Source: Nitratiruptor sp. YY08-10
Lineage (GTDB): Bacteria > Campylobacterota > Campylobacteria > Campylobacterales > Nitratiruptoraceae
Assembly: GCF_016629565.1 (NCBI RefSeq)
Contig: NZ_AP023057.1
Span: 744,001-808,000, forward strand
Length of the DNA: 64,000 bases
Direction: 5' to 3'
How positions within the stretch are numbered: the stretch's first letter is position 1; the number at the start of each line of letters is the position of its first letter. Position numbers and translations under genes: made by a program. Positions 5,692 to 13,123 of the stretch are shown here, piece by piece. The notes under the pieces were generated by a model, which worked only from the letters and a program-made list of their open reading frames with translations, searched no databases and was not told the origin of the DNA.

Positions 5692-7119
5692 ATGCAACCC
5701 CATCTGCCTCCACTCAATGTGGAGAATGTTCTCAAAGAACAGACATTTTTCAAACTGCCGCAGGTCTCACTCAATCTCAAAGTCAATGGAACTGTACGGG
5801 CCGAAGTAGTCGACGTGCTGCCAAGCGGTTCCGTTTTGGTTCGTATCAATGGCCAAGAGCTTGAGATGCGAACAGAAATCCCTTTGCAAAAAGATACGAC
5901 GCTTCTTCTCAAAGTCCTTGGAATGCCAGGCAGCGAAAAAGCGATCAAACTTCAGTTGCTTGAAATTCTCAGTCCAAAAAAAGAGAAAGTTGAGAAAAAA
6001 CTGCAATCTTTGGATTTGACAAAAGATCTTCAACTAGCTCTTCGAATAGCCCTTGGAAACAAAGATGACGAAACAGTGCAGATTTTGCTCCAAAAAGGAC
6101 TCAATGAGCAGTTGCAACGGATGAACGAAGAGATTATTCAAACACTCAAACCTGAAAGTTTCGTAGCCCTGTCCTCCTCACAAGATTTTAAAACGCTCAT
6201 TGCTCAGGCAAAGGAGCTGATCAAAAAAGGTGCAAAAAACGAACTTGAAGAAGTTTTGAAAAATGTAAAAAATCTTCCTCAGCTAAAAAATGCCGATACG
6301 CCGCTTCTGCGCTATATCGCACGTGCAAATGATGCGCAAACACTCGTACAACGATTTGAGCAGATCAATGATATATTTTTCCCGGCTGAACAGTTCAACT
6401 CAATGCTGACTCAAGATATTCAACAACTGATTCTCAACAGTGGAACTTTTTTGGAAAAGAGACTCGACACTCTTGTCAAGCAGTTTACGCTTTTACAAAA
6501 TGTTCAAGAGCAGTTGGATGTTAAAACCCCAAAAGAGATCAAAGAGTTTGTGCTCAATGCGACTGTTTTGGATGAACATATCAAAGCACTCTTTAGCAAT
6601 GAAACACAAAAGCCTTTGCAGATTCTCATACAACAAGCTCTACATACTCTTCACACGAAAGCACAGGAGATTATCACCCATGACCTCAAGGTATTGGTAG
6701 CACAGATGAAAGAATCCTTGGGCGATGACAAAAAAGTATCTACGCTTTATCACAATCTCCAAAATTTTCAACTCTATTCGTTGGTGAGCGGGATGGTATA
6801 CACCTACCTTCCGGTTGTTTGGCAGGATCTAAAAGAAGGATCATTGCGGGTATGGGCAGATAAAAAACACTATTTTTGTCAGATAGATCTCGATTTTGAA
6901 GACATTGGAAAAGCACAAGTAGATCTTTTGATGATACACAATAGTCTCAAAGTGGAGTTTTTTATAGAAGATGCCGTTTTTCGTGAAATTCTCAGAGATG
7001 GCGTTACACAATTGATAGAAGATCTGGAAGATTTCGAGGATGTTTTTGTGACTTTTGTATCACATTCGGGTGAAAAAACGCGTTATACTACAACAGATGG
7101 AATCAATATAACAGTATGA
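5692..7119 (+). CDS. FliK-like protein (possible hook-length control family)
   Basis: A 475-residue protein starting 1 base after the ttcA stop. I do not recognise it by signature alone. The N-terminus (20-90) looks like a small beta-barrel (LKVNGTVRAEVVDVLPSGSV), the middle is long and helical and rich in Gln/Leu, and the last 110 residues (SLRVWADKKHYFCQIDLDFE to FVSHSGEK) resemble a FliK C-terminal hook domain. The next gene encodes a free FlhB C-terminal domain, and such pairs (YlqG/YlqH in Bacillus) are known. No membrane segment or signal peptide is seen. It overlaps the next gene by 4 bases. Confidence 0.6.
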   Translation: MQPHLPPLNVENVLKEQTFFKLPQVSLNLKVNGTVRAEVVDVLPSGSVLVRINGQELEMRTEIPLQKDTTLLLKVLGMPGSEKAIKLQLLEILSPKKEKVEKKLQSLDLTKDLQLALRIALGNKDDETVQILLQKGLNEQLQRMNEEIIQTLKPESFVALSSSQDFKTLIAQAKELIKKGAKNELEEVLKNVKNLPQLKNADTPLLRYIARANDAQTLVQRFEQINDIFFPAEQFNSMLTQDIQQLILNSGTFLEKRLDTLVKQFTLLQNVQEQLDVKTPKEIKEFVLNATVLDEHIKALFSNETQKPLQILIQQALHTLHTKAQEIITHDLKVLVAQMKESLGDDKKVSTLYHNLQNFQLYSLVSGMVYTYLPVVWQDLKEGSLRVWADKKHYFCQIDLDFEDIGKAQVDLLMIHNSLKVEFFIEDAVFREILRDGVTQLIEDLEDFEDVFVTFVSHSGEKTRYTTTDGINITV

Positions 7120-7373
7120 AAAAAAAGGCAGTAGCACTTCAATATGACAAAAAGAGTTCGAATGCGCCAAAGGTTATTGCAAAAGGGGAAGGGTACAGGG
7201 CACAAAAAATTATCGAACTAGCACAAGAACATGGTATCGAGCTCTATGAGGATCCTGAACTGATTGAGGTTCTTTCAAAAGTTGAATTGGATGAAGAGAT
7301 ACCACAAAAACTCTATGTGGCAGTAGCCAAAATATTGGCTTATATCTATAGAAAGAAAAAGGAGAAACGATGA
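7116..7373 (+). CDS. FhlB: stand-alone FlhB C-terminal domain protein
   Basis: An 85-residue cytoplasmic protein matching the C-terminal part of the flagellar type III export switch FlhB: AVALQYDKKSSNAPKVIAKG, then a helical RAQKIIELAQEHGI, then LYEDPELIEVL. It has no membrane domain and lacks the NPTH self-cleavage site, as expected for FhlB/YlqH-type homologs that can substitute for part of FlhB. It overlaps the FliK-like gene upstream (ATGA) and the unknown gene downstream (ATGA), so all three are translationally coupled. Confidence 0.85.
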   Translation: MKKKAVALQYDKKSSNAPKVIAKGEGYRAQKIIELAQEHGIELYEDPELIEVLSKVELDEEIPQKLYVAVAKILAYIYRKKKEKR

Positions 7374-8053
7374 ACGTATCAGTCGCAGGAAAAGCAAAAA
7401 TCGTAAAAATATATAACATATCACGACTGGAGATGGAAGGTATCGAGTGGGATGCGTTTGATTTGGAATCTGCTGAAGATGTCAAAGAGCTTTTTGAAAT
7501 CGCCAAAGAATATGTCGAGAGCGCAGAAGCAGATGCTATCGAAGCACCTGAAGAGATACATTGCGCCGATCCGGACGAATCTTCCATAGAGATCGATTCG
7601 AAAACATACTATACCGATGATGTGATATTGAAAAACAAAAATATTGTCGATCTTCTACCATTGATTCAAAATGCCAAAGTGGGTGATATTTTCTTCGTTG
7701 TTGTTCAAGAGGGTGATGGCCGTTGGGATTTGGTAGCAGATATCGAGCATGCCGAGTCCAATGAAGTAGAGTTTGGGTATGTGGATTGTTCTGTGCTTTT
7801 TGATCAATACGACATATTACGAGAAGGTTATCTTGATGTACTATGCGATACACTTCTTCCGGAAACCTTGAAGGTAAAGGATGCGGCAGTAGAGCTTCAG
7901 GATTTTGTTTTTCATCCTGTTCAAAGTTACGGACAGCTCTATGTCGTAAAAAAAGATCCGGTAGGAGATGTGAAAGTATTGCAAAAAATCGATTACGGTG
8001 GAAGGATGCTGAGCGGGACAGATATGATCGTAGATGATTTTGAAGCAAATTAG
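7370..8053 (+). CDS. Acidic soluble protein of unknown function coupled to FhlB
   Basis: A 227-residue protein with no family I recognise. It is very acidic, has no signal peptide or membrane segment, and alternates short strands (VGDIFFVVVQEGDGRWDLVA, EVEFGYVDCSVLF) with helices. A strong GGAGAAACG site precedes ATG 7370, which overlaps the FhlB stop. Its position at the end of the FliK-like/FhlB cluster suggests a link to flagellar export or envelope function, but nothing in the sequence proves this. Confidence 0.7.
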   Translation: MNVSVAGKAKIVKIYNISRLEMEGIEWDAFDLESAEDVKELFEIAKEYVESAEADAIEAPEEIHCADPDESSIEIDSKTYYTDDVILKNKNIVDLLPLIQNAKVGDIFFVVVQEGDGRWDLVADIEHAESNEVEFGYVDCSVLFDQYDILREGYLDVLCDTLLPETLKVKDAAVELQDFVFHPVQSYGQLYVVKKDPVGDVKVLQKIDYGGRMLSGTDMIVDDFEAN

Positions 8054-8245: not shown

Positions 8246-9919
8246 TTGAAAAGTCTCAATCAGCAGCTTCAAGAGTGTATCGTCCATCTCTTTGAACATG
8301 TTTTTGAAGGAATTATTTTTATTGAAGTTGATGGAACGATTCTATATGCCAACGGCAGTGCTGCAAAAATAGTAGGATATCAAAAAGAAGAGCTTGTAGG
8401 GAAAAACGTATTTGAATTTGTTGATGATAATTGCAAAAGTATTGTACAAAACCATATTGGAAAAAATTATAGCAAACCCTACAAAGTCAAGGTTAAAAAA
8501 AGAGACGGTTCGAATGCCTGGGTTTTGGTGAAGGGGAGAAGTATCCAGTTATTCGGTACTGTTTTGCGTATCGTTTCCATTTTTGATATTTCCGAAATCG
8601 TAGAAAAAGATAACCTTATTGACTACCTGTCCAATTACGATTTGCTTACAGGACTTTACAACAGAAAGTTTTTTTTAGAGTATATCCAAGAAGTACTTTC
8701 CTTTTATACGAGTCATTCTCTTTATGGGACAATCTTTTTTATCGATATCGACGATTTTCGAGAGATCAATGAGATTCGTGGACATGAAATTGGAGATCTT
8801 CTTTTAAAAGAGATCAAAAAAAGACTACAAGCCCTTGTGAAAACGGAGGCTTTGATAGCCAGAGCCGGAGGTGATGAATTTCTTATCTTTTGTGATTTAA
8901 AAGAAAAAAATAGAGAGAGAGCTCGGATTTTCAGTGTCACGTTTGCAAATCGGCTGCGAAAAGAGTTGGAAAAGCCTTATTGTATCGAGGATCAGACTAT
9001 CAACATAACAGTCAGCATCGGTATTGCACTGATTGAGCCAAATTTAGATATCGCCACTTTGTTAAAACAGGTTGATGTCGCTTTGTACAACGCGAAAGAG
9101 AAGCGAAGAAATCGCATTATCGTTTTTAATTCCAGATATCTTGAGATGGTAAAAGAGAAGAGCGCATTAAAAGAAAAAATCAAAGCCGGACTGAAAAGAG
9201 GCGAATTTTTTCTAGCCTTTCAAAAAAAAGTCCGTTTACAAAACGGTTCCCCACATATTGTTGGATATGAAGCGTTGATACGATGGGAACGAGACGGAGA
9301 GATAATTTCTCCAGCCAAATTCATACCTATAGCTGAAGAGAATGGATTGATTATCGAAATAGGTGAGTATGTTTTGCGTGCGGTCTGCTCCTATCTTCAA
9401 AATAGTGATACGAAGATTTCGGTCAATATCAGTCCAAGACAATTTGAGGACGAGCTTTTCGTCAAGCGAGTGAAAGAAATTATCAATGAATATAGCATCG
9501 AGCCAAATAATCTTATCTTTGAGATAACAGAAAATATTTTATTGGAAAATATCAAGGAAGCGATTGTTAAAATAATTCAACTAAAAAAATTTGGTATATC
9601 ATTTAGCATCGATGATTTTGGAACGGGGTTTTCTTCCTTTGAATATCTAAAAACGCTTCCGCTGTCTGAGCTGAAAATCGATCAAATGTTTGTAAAAAAT
9701 ATTGTCGATAATTCCAATGATTATGCAATTGTGGAAGCGATGACAAAAATTGGTCATATTTTTGAGTTGCAAGTAGTTGCAGAGGGTGTTGAGACAAAGG
9801 AGCAGCTGCAAATTTTACAAAAGATCGGGGTAGATGTGTATCAAGGATACTATTTTGGCAAACCCGAAATCAATCAATTTATAAGGAGTATAAATGGGAT
9901 TTATAAAGAAACATTTTGA
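8246..9919 (+). CDS. PAS-GGDEF-EAL cyclic-di-GMP enzyme
   Basis: A 557-residue soluble protein with TTG start and AAGGATATT upstream. It has a PAS sensor (about 12-118: GIIFIEVDGTILYANGSAA), a diguanylate cyclase domain (about 125-295) with DLLTGLYNR, FIDIDDFREIN and an intact AGGDEF (208-212), and an EAL phosphodiesterase domain (about 305-550) with EALIRW, NISPRQF, ITEN, DDFGTG, LKIDQMF, VAEGVET and QGYYFGKP. All catalytic motifs of both domains are present. The inhibitory I-site RxxD is absent (KTEA instead). No membrane segment. It overlaps the next gene by 26 bases, so it is co-translated with a receptor and a CheW protein. Confidence 0.93.
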   Translation: MKSLNQQLQECIVHLFEHVFEGIIFIEVDGTILYANGSAAKIVGYQKEELVGKNVFEFVDDNCKSIVQNHIGKNYSKPYKVKVKKRDGSNAWVLVKGRSIQLFGTVLRIVSIFDISEIVEKDNLIDYLSNYDLLTGLYNRKFFLEYIQEVLSFYTSHSLYGTIFFIDIDDFREINEIRGHEIGDLLLKEIKKRLQALVKTEALIARAGGDEFLIFCDLKEKNRERARIFSVTFANRLRKELEKPYCIEDQTINITVSIGIALIEPNLDIATLLKQVDVALYNAKEKRRNRIIVFNSRYLEMVKEKSALKEKIKAGLKRGEFFLAFQKKVRLQNGSPHIVGYEALIRWERDGEIISPAKFIPIAEENGLIIEIGEYVLRAVCSYLQNSDTKISVNISPRQFEDELFVKRVKEIINEYSIEPNNLIFEITENILLENIKEAIVKIIQLKKFGISFSIDDFGTGFSSFEYLKTLPLSELKIDQMFVKNIVDNSNDYAIVEAMTKIGHIFELQVVAEGVETKEQLQILQKIGVDVYQGYYFGKPEINQFIRSINGIYKETF

Positions 9920-11774
9920 AAACCAGGGAATAACAGAAAATTCGAATAATACGCAACAGGATGAAACGCAAAACAGTATAGATTTAAATACAGCAACTAT
10001 CGAGGAAATTTCTCACAAACTGACTGAAAAAACGGCAGAAGGTTTGGCGGCAATTGAAGAAATCAAAGGAACAATGGAGCAGATTGCTGCAGCGGCAGAA
10101 GAGAATGCTGGGGCGGCTGAAGAGAGTCTGAGTGCAATTGAAGAGATCAATAAAAATGCCCAAACTCTGGAAAATGACAGTAACTTTATATTAGAGATTT
10201 CTGAAAAATTTATGGAGCTCATCAAAGGAGCGAATCAAAGTATCTTAGAAGATAAAGAGAAGATGCGTGTTACTGCAAATTTTGCAGAAGAGATTGCAAA
10301 GAAGGCAAATCTTTTATACGATTCATCCAAAGAGATCGATAATGCAGTCAATTTGATTACAAAACTGGCAAAGAAAACCTCATTATTGGCACTCAATGCT
10401 GCTATCGAAGCTGCCAGAGCTAAAGAAAAAGGCAAAAGCTTCACTATTATGGCTTCTGAGATTCGCCAGATTGCTTCAAAATCCAATAGATACGTGGTCA
10501 ATATCAAAGAGATTGTCCAAATAACGCAAGAAAAGATTGCTGTAGCAAAAGATGTGATGAATACACTTCATACTTCGATGCAAGAGGCCGAAAAAATTGC
10601 TCTTGACAGCTCAAATAACATGTATAGCATCATGAATTTGATCAAAAAGACAAATGAGTTGACAATGAGTATTGTTGATGCAGTAAAACGAACGGCAAAA
10701 GAGGTGAGTGCTATGCATCAAAGTGCGGAGATTATTGCCAGTGCTGCAGAAGAGAGTGCCAGTGCAGTCAGTGAGATCACCAATACAATTTCTCAGCAGG
10801 TTGAAGCCTTCGCGCAAGCTGAAGTTGCAGCAAAAATGATCAAAGATCTTATCGACAAGATGGAAGGAGGCGATAAAAAAGCGGTAGTAGATGAGTTGGC
10901 ATCTGCTTCAGAAGAGCTAACCAGCACCAATGAGGAGATCGAGCGTTCGATGGAGCAGACTGTTGAAGCATTGGAACAGATAGAAGAGGCAGCCAATATT
11001 GCCAAAGAGGATGCTAAAAGAGCGGAAGAAATAACAATAAAAACTTTGCAAGAGGCATCTCATGCAAAGGATCTATTGAACAATCTTTTTGAAGATTTGA
11101 AAAAAATTGATCAGATTTTTGATAGTGTGATACAAGATCTAAAAAGAATAAAAGCGATGGCTTTGGAAAATACAAAATCATCCGAAGATATCATTCCTTC
11201 ACTTGATTTTATCAACTCAAAAATCAATGCTCTCAATGATATGATTCGCAAAATTGAACTCTCCATCGTTCAAATTTCGGCCCTTTCAATCAATGGTTCA
11301 GTAGAAGCAATACGAGCTGGTGAATTTGGTAGCGGTTTTAGTGAAGTGAGTCGCGATATTAAAGAGCTTGCCAACAGTTCAGAAGAGAATCTTGACAAGG
11401 TTATTCAGACAATCAACAAAGTAAAAGAGGAAAATGACCAAATCAATGTATTGGTCAATAATATTATTCTTACCCAACGTGCGGAAAACGAGAAGCTTGA
11501 TAGAATCGAATATGAACTTGCCAACAATAAAGAGAATTTGACAAAAGTGCTAGAAGCGGTGGAAAAAGGTGTTACACTTGTCGAAAATATCGTACAGGCG
11601 CTCGAGCAGAGTAAAATTGCTGCAGAACAGATTTTAGAAGCCGGAGAACTATCTCACAAAAATGCTGCTGAATCGAAAGAGGCTGCAAATATCATTTTAC
11701 AAATCAGTAGAGATATGAAAGAGCTTTCTGCAAAACTGTATGAAATAGCATCAGCATTGGCTGGAGAAGCGTAA
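9894..11774 (+). CDS. Soluble chemoreceptor with two tandem MCP signalling hairpins
   Basis: A 626-residue, almost fully helical protein with no signal peptide, membrane segment or recognisable sensor domain. The first hairpin (about 40-315) has a typical tip, SLLALNAAIEAARAKEKG, at 163-180. The second (about 330-625) has a divergent tip, ALSINGSVEAIRAGEFGSGF (463-482), that keeps the Asn, Glu and Arg positions. Each is flanked by AAAEENAGAAEES- or ASASEELTSTNEE-like bundle repeats. Start at ATG 9894 follows a strong AAGGAG inside the end of the GGDEF-EAL gene. The stop overlaps the CheW gene as TAATG. It probably takes its input from the partner proteins. Confidence 0.9.
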   Translation: MGFIKKHFENQGITENSNNTQQDETQNSIDLNTATIEEISHKLTEKTAEGLAAIEEIKGTMEQIAAAAEENAGAAEESLSAIEEINKNAQTLENDSNFILEISEKFMELIKGANQSILEDKEKMRVTANFAEEIAKKANLLYDSSKEIDNAVNLITKLAKKTSLLALNAAIEAARAKEKGKSFTIMASEIRQIASKSNRYVVNIKEIVQITQEKIAVAKDVMNTLHTSMQEAEKIALDSSNNMYSIMNLIKKTNELTMSIVDAVKRTAKEVSAMHQSAEIIASAAEESASAVSEITNTISQQVEAFAQAEVAAKMIKDLIDKMEGGDKKAVVDELASASEELTSTNEEIERSMEQTVEALEQIEEAANIAKEDAKRAEEITIKTLQEASHAKDLLNNLFEDLKKIDQIFDSVIQDLKRIKAMALENTKSSEDIIPSLDFINSKINALNDMIRKIELSIVQISALSINGSVEAIRAGEFGSGFSEVSRDIKELANSSEENLDKVIQTINKVKEENDQINVLVNNIILTQRAENEKLDRIEYELANNKENLTKVLEAVEKGVTLVENIVQALEQSKIAAEQILEAGELSHKNAAESKEAANIILQISRDMKELSAKLYEIASALAGEA

Positions 11775-13123
11775 TGGTCTCCGTCTGTACATTTAAATTA
11801 AACAACTCCATTTTCGGCGTCAATGTTGACAATGTGAAGTGGATTGTGGATGTGGAGAAGGTGTATGATGTTGCTTTTATGCCGGAGTATATTATAGGAG
11901 AGATCAAACAAAATGATGATGTCTATTTTTTGGTGTGCCTCAAAAAGCTGTTGAAGCTTGGAGACTGTGAAGATCTGAAAAACAAGAGCGCCATAATTTT
12001 AAGCATCAAAGATAAAGATTTTGCCATCCTTGTGGATGAAATCCATAAGATCGAAGAGATAGAAAATATAAAATATAACAATGACAAAATCGAAGTGATC
12101 AATTTTGATGAAGAAGTGGTGGAAATTTTGAAAGAGGATTTCTTTTATAGCAGTGTCGATGTCCCGACGATCAAGCCATCCTATCAAAAGCAAAAAGAGG
12201 AACTTCTAGATAACACTTTGGAAACAGATCAAGATGAGACAAGTTTGATTCTGTTTAAACTAGGGAAAGAGATTTTTGCCGTGGATGCTTCTATGGTGCA
12301 GTTTGTCGAAGTTTTGGAAGATGCAAAAAAGGGTATGTATATTCCGAAAGAGGAGTTTATAGAAGGTGTTTATTTGGTGAAAAATAGGCTATTGCATCTT
12401 ATCAATCTTGGGAAACTGCTACATGTTGATAGTAAGCTTGGTGAAAATATTTTTATTTTTAAAAAAGAGAATCTTCATTTGGGACTCAGTGTCGGTGAGA
12501 TTCTCAATATAGTCAATGTCCAAACAGAAAACATCAATATTGCAAGAGGAGAAGAGATTCTCGACCGTTTTTTTATATATGAAAACCAGGTGATATCCAT
12601 CATTAGTAATGAATATCTGCAAAATCTTATCGAGATGTACGGTATTACCTCTCATGACAAAAACGAAGTTTCAAAAAGGGTGCATGAATATGAAGAGTTC
12701 TTGATCGTCAGTGTGGACGGAAAAAGATTGGCGATTAAAATGGAAAATATCAAAGGTATTCATGAAGAGCATGAAGTGCATATCACACGATCTTTGGAAC
12801 ATAGAGAAGGGGTTGAAGGAATTGTTGCTATCGATTCAAGAAGTTATCTGCTTTTTGATTTGGAATATCTGGCAACCAAAACAGAAAGTCAAGGAAAGGA
12901 TGGACTGATCCTTATCATGCAAACGGAAGTTGAGAACAGACTCTTCGATTATGCCCTGCTTATTGGTTCTATTCAAGAAATCATACAAGTTCCAAAAGAT
13001 GATGTGCATATCGTTGTTTCAGAAAAAGAGCATTTTATTAAAGGGACGGTAGAGTATCATGATGAAGTCTATAACATTATCAATACAAAATGGATAGTGG
13101 AACAATTACAAAAGAATGCATAA
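11774..13123 (+). CDS. Triple CheW-domain adaptor protein
   Basis: A 449-residue soluble protein made of three CheW-like folds: about 2-125 (CTFKLNNSIFGVNVDNVKWI), 156-289 (LILFKLGKEIFAVDASMVQ) and 307-446 (FLIVSVDGKRLAIKMENIKG). Linkers are acidic and Lys/Glu-rich. All three are divergent and none keeps the usual NLRG stretch, so binding to ordinary CheA or receptors is not assured. CheW proteins couple receptors to CheA. The start codon lies inside the stop of the tandem MCP gene (TAATG), so the receptor and adaptor are made in a fixed ratio. No CheA or CheY gene is nearby. Confidence 0.85.
   Translation: MVSVCTFKLNNSIFGVNVDNVKWIVDVEKVYDVAFMPEYIIGEIKQNDDVYFLVCLKKLLKLGDCEDLKNKSAIILSIKDKDFAILVDEIHKIEEIENIKYNNDKIEVINFDEEVVEILKEDFFYSSVDVPTIKPSYQKQKEELLDNTLETDQDETSLILFKLGKEIFAVDASMVQFVEVLEDAKKGMYIPKEEFIEGVYLVKNRLLHLINLGKLLHVDSKLGENIFIFKKENLHLGLSVGEILNIVNVQTENINIARGEEILDRFFIYENQVISIISNEYLQNLIEMYGITSHDKNEVSKRVHEYEEFLIVSVDGKRLAIKMENIKGIHEEHEVHITRSLEHREGVEGIVAIDSRSYLLFDLEYLATKTESQGKDGLILIMQTEVENRLFDYALLIGSIQEIIQVPKDDVHIVVSEKEHFIKGTVEYHDEVYNIINTKWIVEQLQKNA

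Follow-up and report, generated by a model that had tools for sequence, protein, structure and literature searches.

A three-gene operon in the window, by which we mean the whole 64-kb stretch of DNA analysed here (744-808 kb of the 1.82 Mb genome of a vent bacterium, G000), joins the gene of a PAS-GGDEF-EAL protein to those of a DosM-type double chemoreceptor and a triple CheW protein (CheW3). The reading favoured here, to which we assign a probability of about one half, is that the trio represents an F9 lattice uncoupled from the kinase, which positions or tunes the c-di-GMP phosphodiesterase encoded in the same operon. The operon linkage of lattice genes with a c-di-GMP enzyme suggests that the lattice controls c-di-GMP; if true, a chemoreceptor lattice can operate without a histidine kinase.

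The operon and its relation to the F9 class

The three open reading frames were confirmed on the + strand (Table 1), and both the operon and the domains proposed for its products in an earlier note on this DNA were borne out. The genes overlap as described there, by 26 nt between the enzyme gene and dosM and then through TAATG between dosM and cheW3. The accompanying claim that they are co-translated was only partly upheld: the overlaps are real, but they do not make co-translation a necessity. As dosM has a strong ribosome-binding site of its own, translational coupling is not proven by the overlap alone, and co-translation of the enzyme gene and dosM is plausible rather than required. Nor is the 26-nt overlap conserved: G051 and G149 have gaps of 18 and 27 nt, respectively, between the corresponding genes. 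Scans for promoters and repeats gave nothing clearly over chance.

Table 1 Coordinates of the features of the operon in the window, and of one gene at locus L010
Feature	Position	Strand	Description	Basis
PAS-GGDEF-EAL gene	8246..9919	+	557 aa, TTG start	
AAGGAG ribosome-binding site of dosM	9883..9888	+	within the 3' end of the GGDEF-EAL gene	direct reading of sequence
DosM-type receptor gene	9894..11774	+	626 aa, tandem pair of MCP hairpins, sensor domain absent	Pfam, AlphaFold2, DosM tree
First DosM hairpin tip	10353..10466	+	38 residues; clade-specific KKTS replaces DQTN	
Second DosM hairpin tip	11250..11363	+	KIELSIVQISALSINGSVEAIRAGEFGSGFSEVSRDIK; GFSEVS replaces GFxVVS	
CheW3 gene	11774..13123	+	449 aa, three CheW domains	Pfam, AlphaFold2, Foldseek, domain alignment
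Protein without Pfam match beside cheB/cheR	L010:5627-6169	+	180 aa in G000; equivalents L157-L163, L081-L085	

Pfam resolves the enzyme into PAS (aa 14-117, 1.4e-12), GGDEF (aa 130-290, 1.6e-36) and EAL (aa 311-540, 4.5e-69) domains, with an intact AGGDEF motif and all EAL catalytic residues in place. A heme-type PAS domain was rejected, as the sole candidate His varies among orthologues. DosM contains two MCPsignal stretches by Pfam; its AlphaFold2 model is all-helical (pLDDT 88; helices 36-175, 177-324 and 328-624), and its sequence profile matches solved MCPs. Foldseek searches with the long coiled coil of DosM returned MCP matches and nothing informative beyond these. In CheW3, three CheW stretches (aa 3-117, 156-261 and 307-443) are modelled by AlphaFold2 as three CheW-type folds (pLDDT 82), for which the best PDB matches in Foldseek are CheW chains, e.g. 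2ch4_W.

The F9 class is marked by the pair DosM and CheW3 (PMC9321776, PMC7534058), which in V. cholerae form two-layered cytosolic arrays for which the F9 CheA is not needed. The window DosM is homologous to the DosMs of full F9 clusters. With F9 cluster I of V. cholerae (DosM VC1403, triple CheW VC1402) the window set shares a double-hairpin cytosolic receptor that adjoins a concatenated triple CheW, the lack of a receptor sensor domain and the tip-to-tip length. It differs in the absence of CheA and CheY, in the GGDEF-EAL gene within the operon, in the loss of the Arg62 equivalent from CheW3 and in a DosM that falls in a separate clade with altered tips. The tandem MCP receptor, the adjacent triple CheW and the rod length of F9 are all present, whereas the cluster has no CheA or CheY of its own, and the set is therefore filed only as partial, or CheA-less, F9.

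A wholly new system was accordingly rejected, DosM and CheW3 being published F9 parts. The earlier note knew of no described system with this composition. That is mistaken as regards DosM and CheW3, since CheA-less sets, termed 'partial F9', have already been published, those of Nitratiruptor among them (PMC9321776, PMC7534058), and the partial F9 sets of Nitratiruptor, Nautilia and Aquificota (PMC9321776) belong to the same CheA-less dosM-cheW3 lineage. The main text of PMC9321776 does not contain the terms 'GGDEF', 'diguanylate' or 'c-di-GMP', and the single-clade result and the Arg62 loss described below are likewise absent from it. Among the open-access papers searched, no report of an operon link between CheA-less F9 sets and c-di-GMP enzymes was found; relative to these papers the single CheA-less clade, the enzyme linkage, the Arg62 loss and the insertion of the trio are apparently new.

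That no CheA is near, as had been remarked, holds for the entire window. The only CheA of the genome lies ~152 kb before the window start (C1:592 kb). Its cluster also contains CheW, CheV, CheY, flagellar genes and a CZB-type MCP, a composition that matches the F14 class described for Nitratiruptor (PMC9321776). The parallel remark on CheR and CheB is correct at the trio but not for the paralogous dosM-cheW3 pair of G000, which lies tail-to-tail (convergent) with cheB and cheR and fits the partial F9 set described in PMC9321776. In the other Nitratiruptor DosM lineage (L010:8287-10179, L076, L078), the four residues KKTS are missing beside the first hairpin tip. A protein of 120-215 aa without Pfam match adjoins cheB/cheR in most CheA-less F9 operons (Table 1). 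Elsewhere in G000, a CheB methylesterase domain is found inside a 1212-residue open frame (G000:C1:884822-885358), in addition to three shorter frames with a CheB domain.

Kinase-coupling residues in the CheA-less clade

DosM loci were gathered from Campylobacterota, Aquificota and others, and their gene neighbourhoods were examined. In a tree of 57 DosMs, obtained by a quick tree search, the 26 CheA-less sequences, which stem from Campylobacterota and Aquificota, formed one clade (SH-aLRT 100, branch 1.33). Locus L088 (G030), which has no CheA in view but falls outside this clade and comes from a genome with four CheAs, was counted among the other F9 loci.

The clade is distinguished by its adaptor. 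The signalling complex reportedly needs Arg62 of CheW in order to function but can assemble without it (PMC3828127). An equivalent residue is present in only 8 of the 77 CheW3 domains of the CheA-less clade, compared with 77/83 in the other F9 sets, and not one of 26 CheA-less CheW3 proteins retains two such residues, as opposed to 28/29 of the others. The three domains of the window protein carry N, K and D, respectively, at this position. An apparent loss of the motif in the full F9 sets of Aquificales, suggested by a strict NLRG count, was rejected, since the domain alignment reads NLRN with the Arg kept. Both DosM tips also carry clade-specific changes, and the tip-to-tip length is 288-300 residues in the CheA-less clade vs 300-301 in the other F9 sets. 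From these substitutions, and from the tip-to-tip length and methylation-like sites that most members keep, we infer that the clade fits a lattice that would still assemble but would no longer drive a kinase.

These observations bear directly on the main rival of the favoured reading, a hybrid array in which DosM and CheW3 recruit the sole CheA of the cell, that of the F14 cluster, to cytosolic arrays and signal via CheY to the flagellum; the enzyme would then be a separate though co-regulated activity that adjusts c-di-GMP levels for the same choice between motile and sessile life. Mo et al. 2022 already proposed that the partial F9 of Nitratiruptor uses the F14 CheA (PMC9321776). The proposal agrees with the presence of exactly one CheA in 22 of the 24 genomes checked, and with the retention of methylation consensus sites in most DosMs. 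Furthermore, the CheB of the Nitratiruptor and Hydrogenothermaceae F9 operons retains an intact phospho-acceptor (receiver) domain, from which it follows that some kinase link persists. Taken with the single CheB of G299, G369, G383, G388, G138 and G048, in most cases the F9-operon copy, this intact receiver implies that the F9 operon is tied into the main pathway, which speaks for a hybrid array. Against such an array speak the Arg62 equivalent, gone from nearly all CheW3 domains of the clade yet kept in the other F9 sets and in the CheW, CheV and CheA-P5 of G000, and the remodelling of both receptor tips. We regard the hybrid array as possible, though not probable.

Linkage of CheA-less loci to EAL enzymes

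A GGDEF-EAL or EAL gene is located in the operon, or abuts it, at 13 of the 26 CheA-less loci and at none of the 30 other F9 loci, three of which have such a gene one or more genes farther upstream. Fisher's test returned 5.5e-6 for this comparison and 1.2e-3 when the three are counted, values that are descriptive only, since the CheA-less state is essentially one event on the tree and the loci are not phylogenetically independent. The linked loci comprise both copies in G432, three Nitratiruptoraceae trios and eight loci of Hydrogenothermaceae type. Among the CheA-less loci examined, every one of the latter type is linked; in these the enzyme gene follows cheR, in places lying between cheR and cheB. 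The neighbourhoods of the trio loci do not place the trio always next to cheA/cheY, an arrangement that the earlier note had regarded as contrary to its reading.

Descent of the enzymes at all CheA-less F9 loci from one ancestor was rejected, as the 14 linked enzymes do not form one clade, those of G432 being no kin of the others (AU p 1.7e-8). A single origin of the Nitratiruptor and Hydrogenothermaceae enzymes was not rejected (p 0.386). Together these two results support at least two independent recruitments to F9 operons, but not a claim of four.

Every F9-linked enzyme has the full set of EAL catalytic residues (ExLxR, N, E, DDFG, K, E, Q), while the GGDEF motif is degenerate in 7/8 of the linked Hydrogenothermaceae enzymes and canonical in the window enzyme. 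Breakdown of c-di-GMP is consequently the shared predicted activity, i.e. the linked enzymes are putative c-di-GMP phosphodiesterases, and the window enzyme could be bifunctional as well. Its three Nitratiruptoraceae orthologues are all encoded directly upstream of dosM-cheW3, and among 22 family genomes no orthologue was found apart from this pair.

In the genus, the trio sits between a conserved gene and recO in 2 of 16 genomes (G000 and G051). In the other 14, the left-flank gene is not followed by the trio, and in 13 it abuts recO directly, which marks the trio as an insertion there, confined to G000 and G051. The GC content of the trio is 35-38%, compared with 40% for the window and about 41-45% on the right side. 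An orthologous trio in another genus (G149) has a different neighbourhood. The resemblance to a gained insertion would also be expected if the GGDEF-EAL gene merely travelled with a dosM-cheW3 cassette or shared its promoter, with no functional tie. The absence of a GGDEF-EAL gene beside the closely related G231 dosM, the frameshift within the PAS domain of the enzyme gene in G051, and the abundance of EAL genes (19 in G000, 10 in G432 and 10-23 in the genomes carrying the link) all lend weight to such passive carriage. Nevertheless, EAL genes make up only ~1% of the genes in the linked genomes (gene totals being estimated), yet unrelated ones repeatedly abut F9 operons, including both copies in G432; the linkage is retained across genera at different sites, and every linked EAL active site is intact. 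Mere co-transport is for these reasons improbable.

The frameshift in G051 (L077, about 11297-11327, - strand) falls in A-rich sequence that includes a long run of A, and possibly reflects a pseudogene, phase variation or a sequencing error. Positions 5692-8053 of the window, ahead of the insertion site, encode a divergent FliK-like protein and a protein of 227 aa with no match in Pfam, the latter found in all 16 genus genomes.

The operon could also be a relic, a decaying F9 set that has lost its CheA and is drifting towards loss. The missing CheA, the loss of Arg62 and the patchy presence of dosM-cheW3 (6/22 family genomes) would fit such decay. On the other hand, the proteins are without exception full-length and open throughout a deep clade, the tip-to-tip length, the methylation sites and the EAL residues have been maintained, and new EAL partners have been acquired, which makes a relic very improbable.

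Proposed c-di-GMP output and comparison with known arrays

In the favoured, kinase-uncoupled reading, DosM rods and CheW3 would assemble into a two-layered cytosolic lattice, by analogy with V. cholerae F9; that such a lattice could form without CheA is inferred because the V. cholerae arrays do so without the F9 CheA. CheW3 of the CheA-less clade would no longer couple the receptors to a kinase. The lattice might instead concentrate the EAL phosphodiesterase, tune its conformation, or both, with the enzyme receiving its signal via the PAS domain and/or the lattice, and the output would be local breakdown of c-di-GMP. CheR and CheB, encoded elsewhere in G000, would determine which state the receptor helices adopt.

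The earlier note had proposed an output in c-di-GMP and not in CheY phosphorylation. What was speculation in this part of its reading is now an idea open to test, for which the genomes surveyed provide comparative support, namely the recurrent EAL linkage, the recruitment of enzymes on at least two occasions and the clade-wide loss of residues predicted to couple to the kinase. Against it stand the enzyme gene missing from the operon in half of the CheA-less loci, including the second copy of G000 and all Nautiliaceae loci, its absence at G231 and its frameshift in G051. The one CheA present in nearly every such genome, the intact CheB receiver and the single enzyme origin that is not rejected for Nitratiruptor and Hydrogenothermaceae likewise speak against the favoured reading. 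A broader claim, that in an F9 clade of vent Campylobacterota and Aquificota an EAL phosphodiesterase has taken the place of CheA as the output enzyme, so that the array of this clade signals without a histidine kinase and via c-di-GMP breakdown, seems possible but not probable. The output of F9 arrays has been described as poorly understood; under standard conditions, no phenotype was detected on deletion of the F9 CheA in V. cholerae (PMC7534058). A CheA-less clade with Arg62 loss and repeated gain of phosphodiesterases would provide a direct test of that output.

Arrays tied to c-di-GMP enzymes are known from other bacteria. Wsp is a chemosensory array that controls the diguanylate cyclase WspR, with c-di-GMP as output, a CheA of its own and a receiver-GGDEF cyclase. 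The window trio would resemble it as a chemosensory array with a c-di-GMP output; it differs in that the cluster has no CheA, the enzyme has no receiver domain that such a kinase could phosphorylate, and it is the EAL domain, which serves breakdown, that is conserved and intact. With the array-tied phosphodiesterase Pch/DipA of Pseudomonas aeruginosa (PMC3861689), a precedent for the favoured reading, the window enzyme shares PAS, GGDEF and EAL domains and an intact EAL site. Pch (PAS/degenerate-GGDEF/EAL), however, depends on CheA both for its activity and for its place at the cell pole (PMC3861689), whereas the window enzyme shares an operon with the genes of a putative kinase-less lattice and has a canonical GGDEF motif.

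At one locus of a Hydrogenothermaceae MAG (L019:285-2674), dosM is split into two overlapping frames and is directly followed by cheR, with no cheW3 between. In the full F9 clusters of Campylobacterota (L091-L095, L176), a PAS protein of 135-166 aa is encoded directly upstream of dosM, and in those of one Aquificota group (L166, L173, L174) a receiver-domain protein is found upstream of dosM; these proteins are possible input modules, located where the window has the PAS-GGDEF-EAL gene.
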